Assembly (NCBI GenBank): GCA_022579005.1
Contig: MU401534.1
Coordinates: forward strand, 62,001-126,000
DNA length: 64,000 bases
Direction of reading: 5' to 3'
From: Poronia punctata
Taxonomy: Eukaryota; Ascomycota; Sordariomycetes; Xylariales; Xylariaceae
The position numbers were made by a program, and so were the translations under genes. A model generated the notes under the pieces. It was not told the DNA's origin and searched no databases. It saw only the letters and a program-made list of their open reading frames with translations. Positions 28,001 through 40,578 of the stretch are shown here, in pieces; within the stretch, counting starts at the first letter, position 1, and the number at the start of each line of letters is the position of its first letter.

Positions 28001-29047
28001 GCCTGCGAGTATACCTGCTGATCCTTGTTTGAGCTGAATAACAACCAACATACCATCGAGCAGTTGACTTTATGAAATAGAATGCAATTATTCTAGCTTT
28101 GTAAGCTGAGTACATAGTTAGTTATATCAATTCCGAACCGGGAATCTAGGATATTACAAAGTGGTGGTATGTTCAAATGTACGAGTAGAACGTAGGCAAG
28201 TATCTCCTTTTTAATCTGGCAACCTCGGACCCACCAAAGTTAAATTTACCCGCAGACGTCTATGCACTAGGTACCTAAGTACTTACCTACCTACATAGTC
28301 TACAGACTACACGTACACTGGCAGCTGGCAGCTGGCAAAAGTTAAAAAGGGGTCTCGGCCTATTCTGCGGTGATTTTAAGAGCCTTTTAGTTATTAGATC
28401 TACCGTGTAGTAACCATGTGGAAAATAGAGCCGCACTAAGGATTCTGTTGTCGTTCGACCAAAGTGGCGTTGAGACGTCATTAAATCAAACTTAATGCCG
28501 GTTATGTAAGTTAGCTTCGCGCTAGTTAAACCCAAGACGGCAACTGCCAAGTAGGTAGCTCGACACGGCTGTTCTAGAGATGCTTGTACCTGGTTCGAAT
28601 GCTTCAATTAGGTAATGCTTTACAAGATCGCTTAAACGTAACAAGTGTTAGTCTACAGCTTTGGTGTAAGAGATGCGATCATCATCGACCATCTGAGGCT
28701 TAAGGGATCATCAGCTGGGCTAACTCATGTACGACTACGACTGTAAAGATTTCCTTCCACAAGATGAGATCGTCGGTTCGGATGTTAAGCGAGCACATGG
28801 TCGTCGTGTCGAAAAGGGGTTGGGATTTACAAGAGTTTATAGATAAAATCAAAATATAAAAGCAGATCAAATTCCCCGGAGAGAAGCTGATGTTTGTTCC
28901 CATCATCACATCACAACCGCAAGCAGAACAGAACAGAGAATCCCATCCCCTTCGATCTTTCCAGATCGGTTTATCATCTCATCCCTGACGAGAAAAAAAT
29001 CCCAAAATCCCATACCTTTTATCTAACCTAGATACAACCAAAGCACC
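25001..29047. other. Long non-coding stretch, boundary of the accessory region
   Basis: About 4 kb without a convincing gene. A short GAGCT/GCTGA tandem lies at about 25630-25660. Only frames below 110 codons without homology-like content are present. It separates the housekeeping block from the accessory RiPP-like block. Confidence 0.45.
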
Positions 29048-29833
29048 ATGCATTCCTCTATCAAAGCATTGGCCCTCCTCCTTGCCAGCCGGGCAATGGC
29101 CATTCCCGCGCCGCAAGCTGGCTCTCCCGTCTGCACGCAAGATACACAATACCAGAACATCGAGGAATCCGAGCCGTACGACGATGCTACCCAGATCGCC
29201 AGCGGCTACCGCTGCACATCCAATAACGCCGAAGGGTGCACAATTGCCGAGTCGGCCACACATACAGTGTAAGATATATGCCCTTTCTTCACTCCCCTTC
29301 CCTTCACTTTTTTGGTATATCTTTACTGACAGAATATAAAAATAGTACGGTTAGCACGAGTGTAAACGGTGGTGCTGGTGGCAATCTGGACTTGAGCAAG
29401 ATCCTCACCCTCGGCTTGGATGCCGGCTTCTCTTACACGTAAGTTTTTGTTCCCTGATTTTACATACCAAAAAAACCCAAAAAAAAACATATCCAACTAA
29501 CAGGAAAACAGTTGGGCTACCTCTGACGCCGAAGGCACTTCTGCTTCCGTGACCTGTCCCAAGGGCGGCATCACCTGCGGCATCCAGGTGATTCCCAAGG
29601 TGATCAAGACGACGGGCCAGACGCGCACAATCATCACCGGCTTCAACTGCCCGGATAACGACGGCGAATGGAGCGACTTCGAGGTCGTCGCCCCCTACGA
29701 GGTCGGCAATGGCGGCTCCGAAGATCTCAGGGCCGTCATGGACTTTAGCGCCTGCTTGGCCGAGTGCGATGGCGACGACGTCGATGCTTGCAAGAAGGCT
29801 GCCGAGGAGGCTAACCTGCCCGATTGCCCTTAA
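29048..29833 (+). CDS. Secreted cysteine-containing protein of unknown function
   Basis: Three exons join in frame: 29048-29268, 29346-29438 and 29512-29833, giving 211 residues. The first ~18 residues are a signal peptide (hydrophobic ALALLLA core, probable cut after A-M-A). About ten Cys follow, several in spaced pairs, for example TCPKGGITCG and ACLAEC. There is no transmembrane segment after the signal. A nearer AG at 29502-29503 would break the frame of exon 3, so the acceptor at 29511 was used. Around residues 39-55 a DATQIASGYRC segment resembles the repeat of the small precursor at 39093 (DGTQIAEGWKR). Function is unknown; an effector-like or cell-wall role is possible. It sits at the edge of the cluster described in the summary, which may or may not mean co-function. 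Confidence 0.82.
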
Positions 29834-30370: not shown

Positions 30371-31375
30371 TCAAGGACGTCCGTCTTGTTCAAGAGCGCC
30401 TGGGGCACGTACAAAGCCTGAGACATTAAGACTATGGACGCTGTGCTCCTCGGCCCAGTCGAGTATTTTTGAGTACGGTCGACACTTGTGAATTCTGCTC
30501 ATATAGCAAGTGTTAGAAAGTACAAGTGAAGTTAAGCAATGGGAGTACAGTACATACACGTTGAAGTCTGGGAATATTTGTTTGAAGCCTTTTGCCCAAA
30601 CATATGTCACCATACCGAGATCTGGTTCGCACATAAGCTAGGGAAATGTCAGTGATTTTACGTAGAATAAGTCGCCCAGACCTGCCCGCTTTACCTTTTG
30701 TCGCAGCATATCTATACAGTGGTCTGCAACTTTAGTCAGCGCAGCGTCTTCAACTGGCTTTGAGGGGGGGGCTAAGTTAGTCTAACCCAGATGAAATCTC
30801 AGCGTCTTAGGATCGTCCCTCCACTCCTTCTTCTTTGGCAGATAGTGATCCATATACGATGCTTGACGCAACATGTTCAGACAGTGTAGTCCGTGGAACA
30901 CTTCGAGGGCACCCATGTACCCACCGCCCATCTCCTCGGTATATTCGGCAGCATACTCTGAAGCGTTGATTCTGTCTACATCACTCCTGGACAATCGCAT
31001 CAGGCCTCCTTTGGCAAAAGTGATCTTCTCCCACCTCTCATCCATCTCATCACTTGGCAGCGCACTGAATTCGTGGGGGGCTCTCAGCGTCCCATCGAAG
31101 CGCTGCATCTCAAAGTCGTCGTCGTTGAAGATCTCGAGCGCTGGAGACCAGGTGCTCATCTTTTGCGTGCACTTGTTCTTGGGTCGAACAAATGCAACGG
31201 TACTAAAAGCAAGGAGACTAAAGAGGATACCGATGAAAATTCCAACAAGGACACATGGCCAGTTCAGGGCTTTGTCTTCTCGTACAGTGGGCTCCGGAAT
31301 GCAATTATCCAGGGGCAATAGTTTCTCATCGTCAGAATGTTCGCCCAGACATTCGTAGTTGGGCGGGCTCTTCAT
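30371..31375 (-). CDS. UstYa/DUF3328-family oxidase, copy 1
   Basis: Members of this family are membrane-anchored oxidases that crosslink or cyclise fungal RiPP peptides (UstYa/Yb in ustiloxin). Four exons on the minus strand: 31375-30787, 30723-30695, 30637-30558 and 30494-30371, giving 273 residues. One transmembrane helix lies at about residues 40-62, placing the rest in the lumen. The two diagnostic motifs are present: HGLHC at residues 161-165 and HLDHC at 195-199. The second is created only when the intron 30786-30724 is spliced, which supports this model; a much nearer acceptor at 30754 would give a 33-nt intron and lose the motif. The C-terminal KCRPYSKILDWAEEH stretch matches the family. 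The start at 31375 is preferred over an in-frame ATG at 31426 because the extra residues look untranslated. It is divergent from the P450. Confidence 0.88.
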
Positions 31376-32888
31376 AACTCCTTGCGTTTGTGTGTTGTAG
31401 AGTAAGTAGATGGTGCAAATCCACAAGAATCAAAACCAGAGAGCTATGGTAAGTGCTGCAGTGTTACTGGCCCTGTCTGATAGGCAGGGTTATATAAAAG
31501 GTACATGTCTAAGTACCCGCAAAGTTGCCATTTATAGCAACGCGGGGGGCGAGTATGGATCTCTGGGATGGTAAGGAGCATATGTCATTTCTTGTAATAC
31601 GATACTGATGGTACTACTCCCTCTAGTCCGGGGCGATTTCATGCCTCATTGGTAATAAAAGATGATATTATCACAGCTACCCCTTAAGTATGATATGAGA
31701 CTAGAGGACAAGACTGCGCGCACGAGATGGCCGTGGGAAACATTTACTATGCCATATGAGTCCACGCAAGTTCTTTTTACTCGGCGTTGATATGGGACGA
31801 GAGGGTCTTCCTTATAGAGAAGACCCCAGCGATTTATATTAGCTCTAGCCAGTTATTCATCTTTTCCTTGATAGTGTATTCATTAAAACCGTTCAATGTA
31901 TATAACAGTTATTGCTGCTGTTAACCTACTCGTAGTTAGTTCTTCAACCCGTATCTAAACGCAGCTTACCGCAACACGGACAAACCTTACTATGAGAACC
32001 AATGTGATGTAATCACCCCTTTGGTCCATATAAGGCTCTGTTCTAGGTCTCTCTGCATTTATGACTCCTTGCTATTCTTAACCGCGGCTACGGAGGACAC
32101 AACAGGATCTATGCGTTTACAAGGCCCAAACCATTGCCTTTTGACATAAAAGTGGGGTATATGTATTGTGACAAATCGCAGTGCCTAGGTAGTAGGTACC
32201 TTATTTTTGTGATAAGAGCCCGCGTTGGAGAAATAACACGCCAATGGCACGTGGGAATGCTGAGCTAGACGCCGGAGCCTTTACAGGTTGCGGAAGACGC
32301 GGCCCATTGCTCGGATACTGTCATACTGACATCTGACATGCATTGTTGTATGACATTTACAAGCGGCTGGGAATAAAGGAATATGCAGAGGTAGTGGTGT
32401 GTACGTTGGTCGCAACCAACATGTTACCATGCCCCATCCCGGGTACTATCTCAGGCCTTGTATTGTACCTATTGGTCAGACGCAGGAGGTCGGTTATCCA
32501 GACAGTGCGGTACGGTGTAATATGGACGGTGGATTCTCGTCCAGGGGGGTGGGTGTACCTTTTTTAGCTGTTGGTCTGTTGCCTTGCATTTCTTATTTAC
32601 GTCCAACACAGAGTTAAGTACTCATACTTATTTTGCTATTTACCAAGTATGGCAAGTTAATATGTCTTATATACATATAAATTGAGGTAGGTACACTCCA
32701 TGTCAAGTTTCCATAGTTCCCTGCCAAAGGCAGCCAACGCAAATGCATCCCTGCACCTGCCCTGCCCTCGCCCTCGCCTCCTAACCTTGGACTTTTATCG
32801 TCAACATTCTATTCCGCATCTCCTTACCCTCTCTCGTCTTCTTCTCTCCCGTCCCATTTTGTATGGCCTTGGAACTAACTTGCTACCT
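31376..32888. other. Divergent promoter region of UstYa copy 1 and the P450
   Basis: About 1.5 kb between divergent genes, likely holding both promoters. No gene is seen. The frame upstream of the P450 ATG (from 32700) stays open but looks like low-complexity leader. Confidence 0.4.
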
Positions 32889-34600
32889 ATGGCTATCCTT
32901 CAAATCTTTCTAACCACAGTGCTTTTGGCCGCCCTGCTGACGATCGGAGGTGCCATACGCCGTTTGTTCCTTCACCCCTTGGCTCATATTCCTGGCCCAA
33001 GACTCGCCGCTCTCACCTGGTGGTATGAATTCTATTTCGACGTCATTCAACCTGGTAAATATGTCTTTAAAATCCAGCAGCTGCACAAACAATACGGTAA
33101 GGCCAATACGTGCGCAAGTGTAAGTCTACAGCGCAGCATCACTGATCTACCTACCTCGCAGGACCAATCATCCGTGTCACCCCGGACGAGATTCACATCT
33201 CTGATGTTGGATTTCTCGACACAATCTATGCCCCTTCTTCGTCCCCGAGAGACAAGTATGAGTACCAACTGAGAACTCTGCGGGTTCCCGGTGGAGTTGG
33301 CACTACTGCCAGTCTTGACGCCCATCGCAGACGACGTGAAGCTCTGGCTCCATTCTTCAGCAAACGCAATGTGACCCTCCTTGAGCCGACGATTACGGAG
33401 AAAGTTCAACAGCTTTGTCAATTGCTGTCGAAACATGCCTCCGAACAGACGCCAGTTAATCTTTCGGATGTCTTCTTCGCCTTCTCCAATGAGTAAGATC
33501 TCTTAACATTCGGGACAAAGAATGACCCTCCTAACAGAGGCTAGTGTTGTCAATAACTTCTTGTTCTCTCAGAGAACAGACGCCCTTTCGGATGAACAGA
33601 AAGCGGCCACATTACGCCATAACAGCTACGAGCTCATGATGGGAATTCATTTCAACAAGCACTTCCCCTTCATCCCCGACTTCCTAGAATCCCTCCCGGA
33701 ATTCATCAGCAAGCCTATTATGCCACCTGGATTGCTTGATATGCTAGACCTATTTGACGTATGCGTTGCCCTGAGAACTATTGGCATCGTGTTCTAATGC
33801 TAAAGACGCAGCGAGTCCGAGCCGAACTGGTAGGCATCATCAAAGCCAAAGCTTCTGGGGCCGGTAGCGACTCGTCGAGTGCAAAATCTGTATATCATAC
33901 TGTGCTCGACAATCCTACTTTGCCCGCACCAGAGAAGGCTTTACTCCGGCTTGAGCAAGAAGGTGCACTCCTGGTTCTCGCAGGAACCGAATCACCAGCC
34001 AAGTCCCTCAACCTGATATTCTACCATCTGCTGGCCAATAGACAGATCATGAGCAAGCTACGACAAGAACTCAGCACCGTCGCACAACCAGCGTCGTGGA
34101 CCCAACTTGAGCGACTGCCATATCTCACCGCGGTCATCGAGGAAGGTCACCGTCTCTCCTTTGGTGTCACGGCCAGAACGGCACGTATCGCTCGGGAAAC
34201 ACTTATATACAGCCCTACATCTCATGCGGCTTACTCTTCGAACATTGGAAAGTCGTACAAGATTCCCGCCGGTACTCCCATGAGCACAACGACCTTGAGC
34301 GCCCATACCGCGCCGAGTGTTTTCCCCCGCCCATTCGTCTTCGACCCGGAACGCTGGCTCGGTGACGAGGGCCGCAAGCTCCAGAAATACCACATGTCAT
34401 TTGGTAAAGGCAGCAGAAAGTGCCTTGGCATCGAGCTGGCCCGTGCCGAGATGTATCTGGTGACTGCAGCCCTGGTTCAGGGTTTTGACATGAATTTGCG
34501 GAAGACTGAGGCGAGCGATGTGGCATTTGCCCATGATTATCATGTTTCAATGCCGAGCAGTCGGTTCAAGGGGTTGGAGGCTACGGTGACTGCCCTGTGA
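32889..34600 (+). CDS. Cytochrome P450 monooxygenase (trichodiene-oxygenase-like)
   Basis: Membrane-anchored haem monooxygenase of secondary metabolism. Four exons join in frame: 32889-33096, 33162-33492, 33545-33758 and 33812-34600, giving 513 residues, a normal P450 length. An N-terminal hydrophobic anchor is followed by the [14 protein letters not shown] hinge. Further motifs are the I-helix AGTES near residue 308, the ExxR motif EGHR at residues 362-365 and the haem-binding loop [10 protein letters not shown] with Cys455. All key residues are intact. The acceptor at 33544 was preferred over one at 33539 because the latter reads into a stop. The sequence resembles proteins commonly annotated as trichodiene oxygenase (Tri4-like), but no terpene cyclase is in the window, so this name reflects similarity only. 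Its position among three UstYa genes suggests work on a RiPP. Confidence 0.92.
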
Positions 34601-35753
34601 GGAAGTGAAACATGGTTTCAATGGCTAAAGTATTAATCATTAAGCAAAGAAGTGCAACTTTAGATATCATTACCTTGCATAGTTTGCAGGTAATGAAAAC
34701 GATGCTTTGAGGGTCTAAATTGTATAGAAACTTCCAAGTTGTATACCTAGCCTCTAGGTGACTATATCTGTGCTTTTAAGAGCAGCTCTATATGCTTACT
34801 TTTAAACTATAAAAAAGGCTTAAAACTATTTTATAACATAAATTAAAGCTAACTCTATTTATCCTTACCTATTAAGCATTAGTCTACCTACTTGATTAAA
34901 GGTTTGCAATAACACTATGATAACCAAAATGTACACGTAGTGCTTAAGAGAAAATGCCAAGATCTTATGTACGTCTCCCCAAATCTAGGTGGTGTGTGCG
35001 GGAACGTGACACACATACTGTACCAGGGCCCAGGGGCTGGTTGGGGCTAACTTGGCCTGAGACTGACACCGTACCTCCCTCCACATCAGGAGGCTGTAGG
35101 ACATCAGCGCGGTAGGACGTGGATGTGGCACTCTGTCAAGCTTTAATATGCACTCGCCTTAGCCGATGCTGCGTCAAGGTTACTCTCAACCCCAATACAA
35201 GAGCGAAGGCCGCTTGTGCCTCAGACCTACATCTACTTCTGTCTTCCATGCCTTGATGCCATCCAAACAGTCACCTCACGTCGGCCGTTGGTCGTTGGTC
35301 CGACTCCCGAGGTCGTTGGTCGTTGGTCGTTGGTCGTTGGTCGTTGGTCGTTAAACCGACGCGCCAGTCCTGCCCACTGCACGCAGGCGGCAGCAGTACT
35401 ACCACCCACCAAGGATCCTCGTACCGGTCAACTACAAGAATTTCCGGTGGCCATACAGCCACAATATGAGGTGCCGACATGAGCGAAGCATCTATGCCCC
35501 TCTACTAATTGCCTTCTGGACTTGGGTGTATTTGAAAAAGCACCCCCGGATCCTACGCTTATCATTATACGAGTATGTTAATAAATTCTCGTGTGACTTT
35601 CTCCCAAGGTTCTAATGTTTTTCTGATTTTCTTCGTCAGGCACCCTGGAAAAGTAGAAAGGTCCTTCGTGCAGCAGTGTTTGAGTTGCAGGCTTCCTGAT
35701 GCTCGACAGGACTTCAGCAGCTGCTTCCCCGGTATCCAAACACCACCGTCAAC
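34601..35753. other. Intergenic with a heptamer tandem repeat
   Basis: About 1.15 kb. The first 300 bases after the P450 are AT-rich. No gene is seen. The heptamer array is listed separately. Confidence 0.4.
35311..35352. repeat. Tandem heptamer GGTCGTT, six units
   Basis: Six perfect head-to-tail copies of a seven-base unit, with a degenerate copy cluster just upstream (35281-35300). A heptamer cannot be read in one frame and the array lies outside any gene. It is a short minisatellite. Confidence 0.9.
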
Positions 35754-37180
35754 ATGGACGGCCCTCCAGTCATGACAGATTATTATACCACTCCGGCATC
35801 AATCATCTTCATCAGCATCTTCTTTCCCATCCTCGGCGCCACTTGTGTAGCTCTACGTTTCTACACTAGAGCCAAGGCGAAGAGTGCGTTTTGGTGGGAC
35901 GACTGGCTATGTATTTCAGCGCTGGTATGCACACGCAATATATTCCGGTCCGTTCAAAGTACAGGCTAACTAATGCTGGCCAGATTTTCGAGCTTGCGAT
36001 GGCGGGGCTCCTGATATGGGGTGCTTCGAAGAAGGCGCTGGGGCGGCATCTTCCTGTCTCAACTGACCCAGGTCCAGACGCATATCTGTTCTTTACCTCG
36101 CCCCAACAAATCATTCTGCAGCAAGTATGTATCCGGCGATCAAGATAATCGCGCCACTTGGAAGAAAATTTTACCAACGCTTGTTACAGATCCAGTATTT
36201 CTTCGACCTCATTGGAGTTTTTGCCTTTGGGTCGCTCAAGCTCAGCATCCTGTTCTTCTACCGCAAGATCTTCTGCGTCAGCAACCCACACAAGGATGCC
36301 TTCAACATCATTACAGCTTCCATGATCGCAATAGTTATCGTCTGGACTTTGAGTTTCGGGATCGGGGCCATCTTTCTCTGCGGAGCTCGTCCTGCATACG
36401 CGTGGGCGCCCGTGGCTCATGTTGCGGAGCATTGTCCTGCGCAGCTACAGTTTCTCGAGGCATATGCCATATCCGATTTCATTGTGGATTTTTTTATCTG
36501 GTCGCTCCCAATTCCCAAAATCTGGGGGTTGCACATGTCTGTTAGCAAGAGATTGAGCGTCATCGCCATCTTTCTCGTCGGTGTACTGTAAGTTGTCCGG
36601 GCCTTTTCCCTCTCTCCTGGATAGCAGGTTGGAGCTGTGAATCATGACTAACATGATGGATAGCACAATCGCTGCTTCCGGCGCGAGAATGGCCATCTAC
36701 ATCATTTACGTCGTCAACGCATTTGCCCAATCCGACGGCGAAAGTACGGATCTCCTCCCCGATCCCCTGCTCACCTAAGAATACTAACATCCGGCAGAAA
36801 TTATCACCTACCTCCTCTTCTGGACCATGATAGAATGCGGTCTCGGACTTATGGTAGTATGTCTACCTGCGCTACGTGCCCCCATGCGCACCTTCTTCAC
36901 TGCCATCTCGCCTGGCTCGCTGATCAGCGGCATCAAATCCGCCTTCACAACGCGCTCGCTGAAGAGCGAGGGGAGTCTAGAAGCAGGTTTCTACCGGCTC
37001 GATGGTGTCAATCAGTCGCACAAACCGTCGGCTTCTGATTGGAGTCGCTATGTGCCGACGGAGGGGGCGCTGCATACGTGTACTTCTGTCGTTGGACCCA
37101 CCGACTCTGATAATTTGGCGAGACAGGTGAAGCCGATGAATGGAGCAATTCATGTTCGGAGTGAGATCCGGCAGTATTGA
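35754..37180 (+). CDS. Seven-helix integral membrane protein (fungal rhodopsin-domain / Pth11-like)
   Basis: Five exons join in frame: 35754-35924, 35984-36124, 36190-36587, 36664-36743 and 36798-37180, giving 390 residues. About seven hydrophobic segments of 20 or more residues lie in the first 290 residues, starting at SIIFISIFFPILGATCVALRF after a short N-terminus. The WWDDWLCI motif after helix 1 and the LKLSILFFYRKIF segment after helix 3 are typical of the fungal rhodopsin-domain family. A soluble C-terminal tail of about 100 residues follows. Family members are common near secondary-metabolite genes and their role is mostly unknown; a receptor function is only inferred from the Pth11 relative. 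Not a transporter by sequence. Confidence 0.88.
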
Positions 37181-37421: not shown

Positions 37422-38240
37422 TCACAGCCCCTCAAGATCCGCGCAATGGCCAGTAGGCCAACAAGCCGTATGCTCCTTCGCAAACTCCGTCAAAGCATCC
37501 CAGTCACGACACAGCCGAAACTGACCATCCCCTGTCAGCTTCGACTGATAGGGCGCATACAGCGGCGTATCATTCGCGCGGCATTGAATCTCTTGCCGAA
37601 GCGCATCGTAGCAATGATTGATATGGATGGCTTTCTCGTCCACGGACTTGCCTGTCATCAGGTCCTGGATGACTTGCCGCAGGTATATCTGCTCGCACGG
37701 TTAGTTTGAATTTTTTTTTTTTTTTTTTGGAAATCCCGGAGATGGTTTGAGCTGTTACTGGAGGGAGGGGGGTTATTTTGTTGCATACCACGCAGTGCAG
37801 CTCGTGAAAGCCTGCAAGTACATAAACCCCCTTCTCCGCGTCGTCGGGGAAGTCCTCGGCGACAGGGAGGCCAGCGCGTGCGGCCTCGCGGTGCGGAATG
37901 GCGACGAACCCGTTGGTGGTGAAGCGGCTCCATGCGACGTCCGATATGGATTGGTTCACGTTGCCGTATTCCGTGTAGGTGTGGAACTCTCTCCACGATT
38001 TCCCTCGCGAGTATATGCCAGCTTTCAGATCTTTCTTTTAGTGTCCAATTTTTTGGGGGGGGGGGAGGGGGAGCGTGTCGAAATTTATTTCAACAACTTA
38101 CTGAAGCCATGGTCGTCGACTGCGAGCTGCAGCCGCCGGATTTGCGTGTATAGAGAGACGTTGCAGGTGACGAGGAGTAGGCAGAGGAGAACCAGCGGTG
38201 TGGGCTGGAGAAGGAATGGGGGACGTCTTGAGGATTCCAT
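37422..38240 (-). CDS. UstYa/DUF3328-family oxidase, copy 2
   Basis: Peptide-modifying oxidase of the UstYa family. Three exons on the minus strand: 38240-38102, 38021-37789 and 37688-37422, giving 212 residues. A transmembrane helix lies at about residues 12-28. Both HxxHC motifs are intact: HELHC at 119-123, placed right before the second intron, and HINHC at 146-150. The segment after the second motif (ALRQEIQCRANDTPL) and the C-terminal RLCRDWDALTEFAKEH match the family; this copy is shorter than the usual 230-270 residues. The introns are unusual: 38022-38101 includes a poly-G run of about 11 and 37689-37788 contains about 20 T (plus strand). An in-frame ATG at 38288 exists, but the 38240 start is preferred. 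It lies between the membrane protein and the precursor gene. Confidence 0.88.
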
Positions 38241-39092
38241 GGAGTGCTGGTTTTCCCGGTTCGTCGTCGGCGGTGGAGGTCCTTTCAAATTGAATCTGAT
38301 AATTGACGTCGCTTCAGGGGCCCAGGGGCCAGGAGGGGTTGTTGCGATAGCTGTTCAGCAGATCATCAGATGCAGGTTCCGACTTTCAAGTTTCGCGGAA
38401 CTGGGAACCAATTGCAGAAGACATGACATGCGACCGAAGTAGGTACCCTTTACTTGAGAAACTAGGGCCAACAAACCTGCTCCCGATCTTTATTCCCTGC
38501 CAAACGCTCCGTTTTGAGCCTCCAGTGCACGTATACCTAGGTTACCTACCTTAGGTAAGTAAAAGTAAGTACCCGGTGTCCATGTTACTATAAGGTAGAC
38601 CGATGCACCTTAGTGGAGTACAAGTGTTTGCCGCGCGCCAACATGTTACATTGCAGGTCCTCTCGGAATACTTGCAAGTTGCAACCAACAGAGCAAGATT
38701 TTTCCATCCACCCTCTTCGGGCTGACATCTACCTAAGGTAGGTAGGGAGGGTTATTTCAAATGGTTACTTTGCTTTGGCCGTAATACTACCCTTCAACGT
38801 CAGCCTCTGGGGGGTTTAAAGTGTAAAGTGCTACCGGGCCTTTCGGGATCAGGGATTCAGAGTCACCAGACATTGTGTTCTAATGCAACGTTTTGATATA
38901 ACGTGAGTGAGTACCACCCAGCCAGCCTGTAGGCTGTGAGGTGTGAAAGACCTATCTATCTATGAATAGTACTTCCTATATTACAGGGTGAGTTTGCACC
39001 CATCCGCAAGTCCACTGTCCACATCGGCAAGAAACTCGACAACGCAAACTTCAAGCCCGCTCCATCAACCGTCTTCTAACTTACACGTAATC
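38241..39092. other. Divergent promoter region of UstYa copy 2 and precursor gene
   Basis: About 850 bases between divergent genes, so it may be a shared control region. It contains ACCTTAGGTAAGTAAAAGTAAGT and ACCTAAGGTAGGTAGGG-like palindromic words near 38525-38560 and 38730-38750. I cannot assign a regulator-binding site. Confidence 0.4.
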
Positions 39093-39351
39093 ATGAATTT
39101 CTTCCTCATCTCCCTTGCCAGTCTTGGCATGATCAGTCAAGTCGTAGCTCTGCCACGTGCAGGTATGTTGATTGTGCGGGTCCGAATTCGTATCCTTCTT
39201 GGCTGACGAGAATCTAGGAGCAAGCGGTATGGCTCCCGCCGGCGAGGCCTTCAGTCCCAGTGAAGAATCTGTCGATGGTACCCAAATCGCCGAGGGCTGG
39301 AAACGTAACGAAGAAGCCGTCGACGGTACTCAGATTGCCGAGGGCTGGTAA
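39093..39351 (+). CDS. RiPP precursor peptide with duplicated core (dikaritin-like)
   Basis: A secretory precursor of 67 residues from two exons, 39093-39162 and 39218-39351, with a 55-nt GT-AG intron (CTGAC branch). Residues 1-19 form a signal peptide. Two identical ten-residue segments, VDGTQIAEGW, lie at residues 42-51 (39271-39300) and 58-67 (39319-39348). Between them are a Kex2-type Lys-Arg (52-53) and an acidic spacer NEEA. The last residue of the protein is the Trp of copy two, so Kex2/Kex1 trimming would leave the same Trp end in both. This is the layout of UstA/PhomA-type precursors: signal, spacer, repeated core, KR. The core is not one I know. The ten-residue segment is an upper bound; the actual product may be shorter. 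Neighbours are UstYa copies 2 and 3. No expression evidence is available. Confidence 0.82.
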
Positions 39352-39654: not shown

Positions 39655-40578
39655 TCACAAGACTCCCGATATGCCATCATCGATGATCTCGCAGTGATTG
39701 AAATGATCAAACAACGGAACTGGATGATCACCGTCTGCATAGCACGCCGTATTCTCTCTCGCCCACTTCTTCCTGCTGTCCCAATCAACACATTTCCGCA
39801 ACTGCCCATCCCCCGTCTCGTTGCGACCCCAAGTGTATAGCAAAGTATCCCCCGAGTTACCGCACATCACATATTGCAACAAACTATCGAAACAATGCAT
39901 CGAGTGCGGCACTGGTACACTTGGGGTCTTGCCCGAGACGAGTTCGGTGAGGGTCTTACGGATGATAGTGAGACAGTGGAGCTGATGATATCTACATAGA
40001 AACAAACGTCAACAACTGGTGCTGCGTTTACGAGGGAGGGGGATGGAGAGAGGAGAGACCGACGCATCGATAATGTAGACACCTTTTGAAGAATCCGAAG
40101 GAAGGCTCATGCTGGCTGGGAGATTGTGCTCCGTAGCCCACGTATGATTGACAGCTACGAATCCAAACGCAGGCACAATTCGATCCCAGGCCGCATCGAC
40201 AGCGTCCTTGGCTCCCGGGTCTTTGGAGCTGTAGACACCGGAGACCCAATGGAATTGTCTCCAGCGCTCATCGTCCGATGTCAGACCTTGTGGATATGAG
40301 CTACTATCTCCCTGTCACGGAGTTGACGGACGGCACTTACGATAGTCTTGGACCTGTACCCCTGTCCCCCCTCCAAATGGCTTCAGAGAGTGCTCGAACG
40401 TGAGGAATGCACACACGATACTGAGACCTAAAATTGCCAGCTCCCGCCAGCACTTAACCAGGTGCGTGAAGAACCGAGATCCTCGGGCCCTACTTCCAGA
40501 AGATGTCTTCTCGCCCGGGTCGTTGTCGTCGCCCAGCAAGGCGTACCGAGCTGTTGGGAGTCGTAGATTGGGAAACAT
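39655..40578 (-). CDS. UstYa/DUF3328-family oxidase, copy 3
   Basis: Peptide-modifying oxidase of the UstYa family, immediately 3' of the precursor gene and convergent with it. Three exons on the minus strand: 40578-40341, 40286-40064 and 39991-39655, giving 265 residues. One transmembrane helix lies at about residues 46-61 (ELAILGLSIVCAFLTF). Both motifs are present: HQLHC at 156-160, completed by the second splice, and HSMHC at 183-187. RWRQFHW early in the lumenal part and RKCVDWDSRKKWAREN near the C-terminus fit the family. The second donor (GTCGGT at 40063) is weak, but it is the one that gives the Y-HQLHC join. A predicted N-glycosylation site (NHT) supports a lumenal location. Confidence 0.88.

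Follow-up and report, generated by a model that had tools for sequence, protein, structure and literature searches.

A short gene at 39093..39351 on the plus strand of a 64,000-nucleotide stretch of the genome of the dung fungus Poronia punctata (contig MU401534.1, here C81, positions 62001-126000; hereafter the window) encodes a secretory-type protein that ends in VDGTQIAEGW, a ten-residue core present in two identical copies. We read this gene, with a probability of roughly 80%, as the precursor of a fungal ribosomally synthesized and post-translationally modified peptide (RiPP) of the UstYa type, because the repeat is real, is kept in 14/15 relatives, and has UstYa genes on both sides. The same neighborhood holds a gene for a Pth11-like seven-transmembrane (7TM) protein, which was absent from the initial annotation and which bears on what the peptide might do.

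The repeated precursor and its relatives

The precursor gene consists of the following parts, all on the plus strand:

39093..39162, plus: exon 1, encoding a hydrophobic signal-type N-terminus, MNFFLISLASLGMISQVVALPRA (from translation, hydropathy and the annotated protein P0003)
39163..39217, plus: intron of 55 bases, GT..AG, with the same splice as P0003
39218..39351, plus: exon 2 including the stop codon (from translation)
39271..39300, plus: core copy 1, VDGTQIAEGW, followed by KR
39301..39306, plus: Lys-Arg, the sole dibasic (Kex2-type) site in the spliced precursor
39307..39318, plus: acidic spacer NEEA
39319..39348, plus: core copy 2, VDGTQIAEGW, abutting the stop codon

When 39093-39162 is joined to 39218-39351, the result is a 67-residue protein in the order MNFFLISLASLGMISQVVALPRAGASGMAPAGEAFSPSEES-VDGTQIAEGW-KR-NEEA-VDGTQIAEGW-stop. 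The annotated Poronia punctata protein GGS20DRAFT_489648 (P0003) is the same over 67/67 residues, so that, judged by sequence, the predicted splice model matches the existing annotation. The sequence CTGAC close to the 3' end of the intron is what we take to be a branch-point-like motif. The 67-residue product and the 39163-39217 intron proposed in the initial annotation are thus borne out by translation and by identity to P0003, and translation likewise confirms its two identical ten-residue copies, with KR and NEEA between them and the last copy at the C-terminus. The N-terminus is hydrophobic, with an 11-residue hydropathy mean that reaches 2.1, and full-length relatives are similar in an alignment.

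Between the 30-base sequences of the two core copies there are four mismatches, and 4/4 are synonymous. Silent changes make up a share of 0.22 of all single changes in the core stretch, which would give 0.22^4 = 0.002 were changes free. The window contains three exact 8-residue tandem words, the yield of one exact 10-residue repeat, and each of 30 first-order Markov sequences contained 0. On these two grounds we rejected a chance origin of the repeat.

A protein search with the precursor gave 16 proteins at E<=1 among 19 candidates, the window's own P0003 included. Among these matches are proteins of Neopestalotiopsis, Gnomoniopsis, Hypoxylon fragiforme, two further Hypoxylon, Xylaria, Paramyrothecium, Stromatinia and Seiridium, and four orders are represented. 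In the 16-row alignment, the full-length relatives share a closely similar signal-type leader, followed by KR-joined 14-residue units, and six positions of copy 1 (D, G, Q, E, G and W) show no variation in any of the 16 rows. A motif search with D, G, Q, [IV], [AG], E, G and W fixed, in which a truncated fourth copy in P0012 was left out, found 35 core copies in the 16 proteins. The free positions are the first (V/T/A) and the fourth (T/G/H/V), and they mostly covary within one protein. Two or three copies are present in 14/15 relatives, and the annotated Seiridium protein P0013 has a single one. KR precedes the first copy in 12/15 relatives, with ER in P0006 and P0013 and no dibasic pair in P0012; a dibasic pair plus four residues stands upstream of 31/35 copies, copy 1 of the window being among the four exceptions; and each copy is followed by KR (20/35) or by the end of the protein (15/35). 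Tyr occurs neither in the spliced precursor nor in any core copy (0/35). The conserved unit is 14 residues long: a run of four, most of them acidic or polar, and then the ten-residue core.

Directly 5' of the start codon, 39020-39092 would read STSARNSTTQTSSPLHQPSS in one frame, and these 20 residues recur close to the N-terminal end of P0013, the annotated protein of Seiridium cupressi. This may reflect either unusual conservation of an untranslated region or recent shared ancestry.

Flanking UstYa genes and comparable systems

The precursor sits between two UstYa genes, UstYa A lying ~0.85 kb before it and UstYa B ~0.3 kb after it:

37422..38240, minus: UstYa A (PF11807), exons 38240-38102, about 38030-37789 and 37688-37422 with the stop codon; motifs HELHC and HINHC
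39655..40578, minus: UstYa B (PF11807), exons 40578-40341, 40286-40064 and 39991-39655; 265 amino acids; motifs HQLHC and HSMHC

Pfam matches to PF11807 in these genes fall in minus-strand frames 37573-38037 and 39658-40008. The start of UstYa A exon 2 is uncertain, as there are several possible acceptors. The H and C positions of HQLHC and HSMHC in UstYa B are invariant in an alignment of 23 relatives, and UstY enzymes have been described as having a dicopper site (PMC12186524). A search by sequence for a solved structure of a UstYa relative gave 0 matches, and a structure model of UstYa B (predicted local distance difference test score, pLDDT, 51) was not used. The initial annotation had tied its proposal to conservation of the repeat in homologues and to an adjacent UstYa gene. 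Two or more copies are kept in all but one of the relatives, and PF11807 genes flank the precursor, with three in the window. Its view of the gene as a secretory-type, Kex2-type repeated precursor, flanked by UstYa genes and conserved in other fungi, is supported.

We found that the layout resembles those of ustiloxin B (UstA, UstYa/UstYb) and phomopsin (PhomA), which also combine a secretory-type repeated precursor, Kex2 sites and UstYa neighbors (PMC7329392, PMC9233826, PMC6941272). It differs from them in having a core without Tyr, two copies only and a linked 7TM gene. An exon-by-exon profile search, which a much-split gene could escape, gave no match on C81 to tyrosinase (PF00264; 20 elsewhere in the genome) or to S41 peptidase (PF03572; 2 elsewhere), and we rejected both as cluster partners. 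The UstA/PhomA layout claimed in the initial annotation thus stands for the repeats, the Kex2 site and the UstYa genes, and fails for the Tyr, for the number of KR sites (one) and for the tyrosinase and S41 peptidase. Nor is this a dikaritin sensu stricto, in which a core Tyr is crosslinked to Ile and the cluster includes both of those enzymes. Asperipin-2a is made by a small cluster with UstYa and without tyrosinase, like the one in the window, and victorin biosynthesis depends on UstYa. The asperipin-2a core is bicyclic and contains Tyr (PMC9233826), and its cluster has a single UstYa gene (PMC7329392). Victorin is likewise a multi-core Kex2-type RiPP in which the C-terminal aromatic residue is joined to an internal aliphatic residue (PMC9233826); it has Phe where the window has Trp, and a different core.

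A 2020 survey covered Kex2-processed repeat proteins (KEPs) with DUF3328 genes, W-containing repeats included (PMC7329392). Its type P-3, of which 4/7 are near DUF3328 genes, and other W-containing DUF3328-linked KEPs resemble the window precursor in being Kex2-repeat proteins with W in the repeat. Type P-3 differs in pairing W with P and in its genera (Fonsecaea, Cladophialophora, Galerina, Psilocybe and Coprinellus), none of which is in the precursor family described here. The family may be present but nameless in the survey's supplementary list. QIAEGW was not found in a literature text search in which most subscription papers and preprints were outside the scope, and the matches listed for Poronia included none for 'Poronia punctata'.

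The 45.05-Mb assembly (573 contigs) contains UstYa matches at 15 loci. We screened these for dibasic-separated repeats with 7 of 8 residues alike, using 10-kb stretches and, for the C81 locus, the whole window. A repeat precursor-like reading frame was present at 9/15 loci, the window included, and none was found in the stretches screened at the other 6/15. The cores of the eight other precursors differ:

C197: seven [QH][IV]SEGF copies, the last at the stop codon
C4: repeat SDDEAVVYKW[DE]G
C5: repeat DAAYREGAWG
C37: repeat CNAPKCAKDTAYAII
C117: repeat VDQDAAKFYDR, dibasic sites partial
C350 (locus L019): repeat SGDAVPWNAVGSE
C29: repeat QFVGTYVPAG
C44 (locus L023): repeat GEAIVPWKEGVQE

These eight precursors lie at L010 4019-4246, L011 6627-6920, L014 6687-7235, L015 2044-2763, L017 2920-3600, L019 2174-2908, L022 7895-8215 and L023 7084-7737. 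The initial annotation had stressed that the core has no aromatic residue other than Trp. This is correct, as VDGTQIAEGW has no Tyr or Phe, and it is not unusual: the repeats of L019 and L023 likewise have Trp and no other aromatic, and we rejected a Trp-only core as a novelty in itself. The C197 locus is laid out like the window, in the order UstYa, precursor, UstYa, with a 7TM gene flanking the row on one side. The closest paralogues of UstYa B and of the 7TM protein that lie elsewhere in the genome are both at this locus. No repeat precursor was found in the screened stretch of C74 (L012), where a signal-type open reading frame without a repeat, L012 5374-5556, adjoins the UstYa and 7TM genes; it is possible that it encodes a single-core precursor.

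The 7TM gene, proposed function and rival explanations

The 7TM gene lies beyond UstYa A, on the low-coordinate side:

35754..37180, plus: Pth11-like 7TM protein (PF20684, Fung_rhodopsin), five exons, 390 amino acids

PF20684 matches fall in plus-strand frames 36067-36588 and, below the cut-off, 36788-37177. The third exon scores 76 bits (cut-off 27) and the last exon alone 18.9 bits, while the Ustulina orthologue P0062 scores 139 bits. A structure model of P0062 predicts seven transmembrane helices in a fold like that of G protein-coupled receptors (GPCRs), and the closest match of the model is the pheromone receptor Ste2.

To describe linkage across fungi, we used a search with UstYa B (44 proteins at E<=0.001 among 290 candidates) and one with the 7TM protein (42 proteins at E<=1e-20 among 4440 candidates), and judged linkage by locus tags or by contigs of equal size, a proxy for the same contig. 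The identity of the 7TM relatives declines from 90% to 44%, after which come three rows at 33-35%. The precursor is linked to UstYa B in Stromatinia (consecutive tags) and Paramyrothecium, and to the 7TM gene in Paramyrothecium, Neopestalotiopsis and Hypoxylon FL1284. The 7TM gene is linked to UstYa B in Paramyrothecium, Halenospora, Aspergillus californicus, A. egyptiacus, A. tanneri, A. bombycis, A. violaceofuscus and Agyrium, and the A. niger annotation has the two as a single fused protein. The 7TM relatives accompanied by UstYa B or the precursor thus range from Xylariales as far as Aspergillus and Agyrium. A single tag separates the 7TM gene from the precursor in Paramyrothecium and Neopestalotiopsis, as UstYa A does in the window, and this tag is probably UstYa A. 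Identity to the window is 84% for UstYa B and 79% for the 7TM protein in Paramyrothecium, which we take to belong to Hypocreales, and 60% for UstYa B in Stromatinia (P0018, P0066 and P0021); the high Paramyrothecium values make horizontal transfer of the cluster possible.

We propose that the 67-residue precursor would enter the secretory pathway and would be cleaved in the Golgi after Lys-Arg, with removal of the basic residues, to give peptides ending ...DGTQIAEGW. Candidate linear products are VDGTQIAEGW and NEEAVDGTQIAEGW. The initial annotation had both trimmed products ending in Trp, which stands for the C-terminal side of both copies. Two points qualify the picture on the N-terminal side: copy 1 is without a preceding KR, and the 14-residue unit implies that a Kex2 product from copy 2 would begin with NEEA, not VDG. 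UstYa A and B would then introduce oxidative changes at one or several conserved residues of the peptide. The likeliest of these are the Trp at the C-terminus and the Ile/Val that stands four residues ahead of it, and the change would be a crosslink or a desaturation. We infer these two sites from what the window and C197 families have in common: the last core residue is aromatic in both (Trp in the window, Phe in C197), with Ile or Val fourth before it and E-G just before it. Reactions ascribed to UstYa-family proteins include ether-link formation, desaturation, hydroxylation and chlorination (PMC12048977, PMC10880069), and the UstYa enzymes of the phomopsin pathway also desaturate Ile, Asp and Pro (PMC10880069). 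The Tyr-free core raises the question of what UstYa enzymes do without the usual phenol.

Because the 7TM gene recurs with these genes over wide divergence, its product, as part of the same conserved module, would most likely sense the secreted product. We consider it somewhat more likely than not that the gene works as part of the module; that the protein is the receptor of the peptide itself is doubtful. The company these genes keep in other fungi is a hint that the modified peptide may be a signal and not only a toxin. Our tentative proposal, to which we give well below even odds, is a RiPP pheromone system in which the genes for a UstYa-oxidised peptide and for a Pth11-like receptor of its own are neighbors that have been co-inherited and co-duplicated across Pezizomycotina. 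If this were true, the peptide would be a ligand for a receptor class, the Pth11-like GPCRs (class XIV), whose ligands are stated to be unknown in passages of a 2026 review (PMC13308352), and some UstYa RiPPs, which are mostly treated as toxins, would be hormones. The module offers a concrete candidate ligand-receptor pair and a search rule for further modules: UstYa plus PF20684 plus a short secreted repeat. We found no report of linkage between a UstYa cluster and a receptor in a literature search with the same limits as the text search above, which covered some papers by title, abstract or passage, and neither 'rhodopsin' nor 'GPCR' occurs in the main text of the 2020 survey (PMC7329392). 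The nearest report is of a putative Trichoderma reesei RiPP cluster of some 20 genes that includes a PTH11-type GPCR, and 'DUF3328' is absent from the text of that paper (PMC7099791).

Several observations weigh against this interpretation. The residues before core copy 1 in Poronia punctata are SP rather than KR, so the copy 1 product would carry an N-terminal extension unless another protease cuts. In Foldseek searches the 7TM model reaches E-values no better than 4e-3. Stromatinia has the precursor and UstYa B and no 7TM row at E<=1e-20, which counts against an obligate trio, although search rows are 90%-identity clusters and a missing row is not confidently an absence; and Aspergillus and Agyrium have the 7TM/UstYa B pair, yet the protein search (E<=1) gave no precursor of the family there. 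Inside this genome alone, the association of 7TM genes with UstYa loci is weak: a 7TM gene is present at 4/15 UstYa loci compared with 6/80 P450 loci (Fisher p 0.03, the shared C81 removed from the P450 side) and 2/12 tyrosinase loci (p 0.44), and among the five paralogues closest to the 7TM gene, those of C98 and C70 are without UstYa linkage. We rejected this enrichment as sole proof, since it is too weak against the tyrosinase control, although it looked strong against random placement, in a comparison where C81 entered twice, and the claim of linkage rests instead on other fungi and on the paralogue ranking.

There is a substantial chance that the product is a defensive or toxic RiPP of the ustiloxin or victorin type, which would act on competitors, grazers or a host, with the 7TM protein at most regulating production. 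The RiPP part is common to both explanations and only the function differs. Phomopsins, ustiloxins and victorin act as toxins, and the case of victorin demonstrates that in a core of this type the linked residue may be an aromatic one at the C-terminus (PMC9233826). The genome also has at least nine UstYa-linked repeat precursors, as a chemical arsenal would. The core is, however, stricter than an arms race suggests, given the six residues of copy 1 that do not vary in the 16 rows, over four orders, and no 7TM gene is among the listed genes of the ustiloxin and phomopsin clusters in passages of PMC6941272.

It is improbable that the peptide is instead an unmodified linear KEP product, pheromone- or effector-like, with the UstYa genes acting elsewhere. 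Like the window system, the alpha-factor/Ste2 pair combines Kex2-processed repeats with a receptor that the 7TM model resembles; it differs in that the window has UstYa neighbors and a 7TM protein of the Pth11-like PF20684 family. We take the window core not to be pheromone-like. UstYa genes stand on both sides of the precursor, the neighborhood with UstYa B recurs in other fungi, and at the eight 7TM loci without a UstYa match there was no repeat precursor in seven and only low-complexity matches, in four frames, in one. Repeats of the yeast alpha-factor family do contain Trp (WxW), and W is found in 24.5% of KEPs without DUF3328 and 20.5% of those with it, but 98.6% of 216 putative fungal pheromones and 227/227 yeast alpha-factors have no neighboring DUF3328 (PMC7329392). 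It is very unlikely that the gene encodes just a small secreted protein in which a duplication arose by chance, with no role as a peptide precursor, even with no Kex2 site before copy 1 and one single-copy relative, in view of the complete copies in nearly all relatives, each running into KR or the protein end, the silent-only change between copies, the lack of any comparable repeat in the Markov sequences, and the UstYa neighbors.

Other features of the window

Two further genes are putative members of the cluster:

30443..31375, minus: UstYa C (PF11807), the third UstYa gene, 3' end approximate, ~8 kb from the precursor
32889..34600, plus: cytochrome P450 (PF00067), start codon picked by eye

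Their Pfam matches fall in frames 30785-31429 (minus) and 33758-34597 (plus). About 1.2 kb from UstYa C, a small signal-type open reading frame with Cys, 29027-29269 (plus), has no Pfam family above its cut-off and contains DDATQIASGY, whose likeness to DGTQIAEGW may be due to chance. Between the P450 and 7TM genes, 35311-35352 is a short GGTCGTT tandem run.
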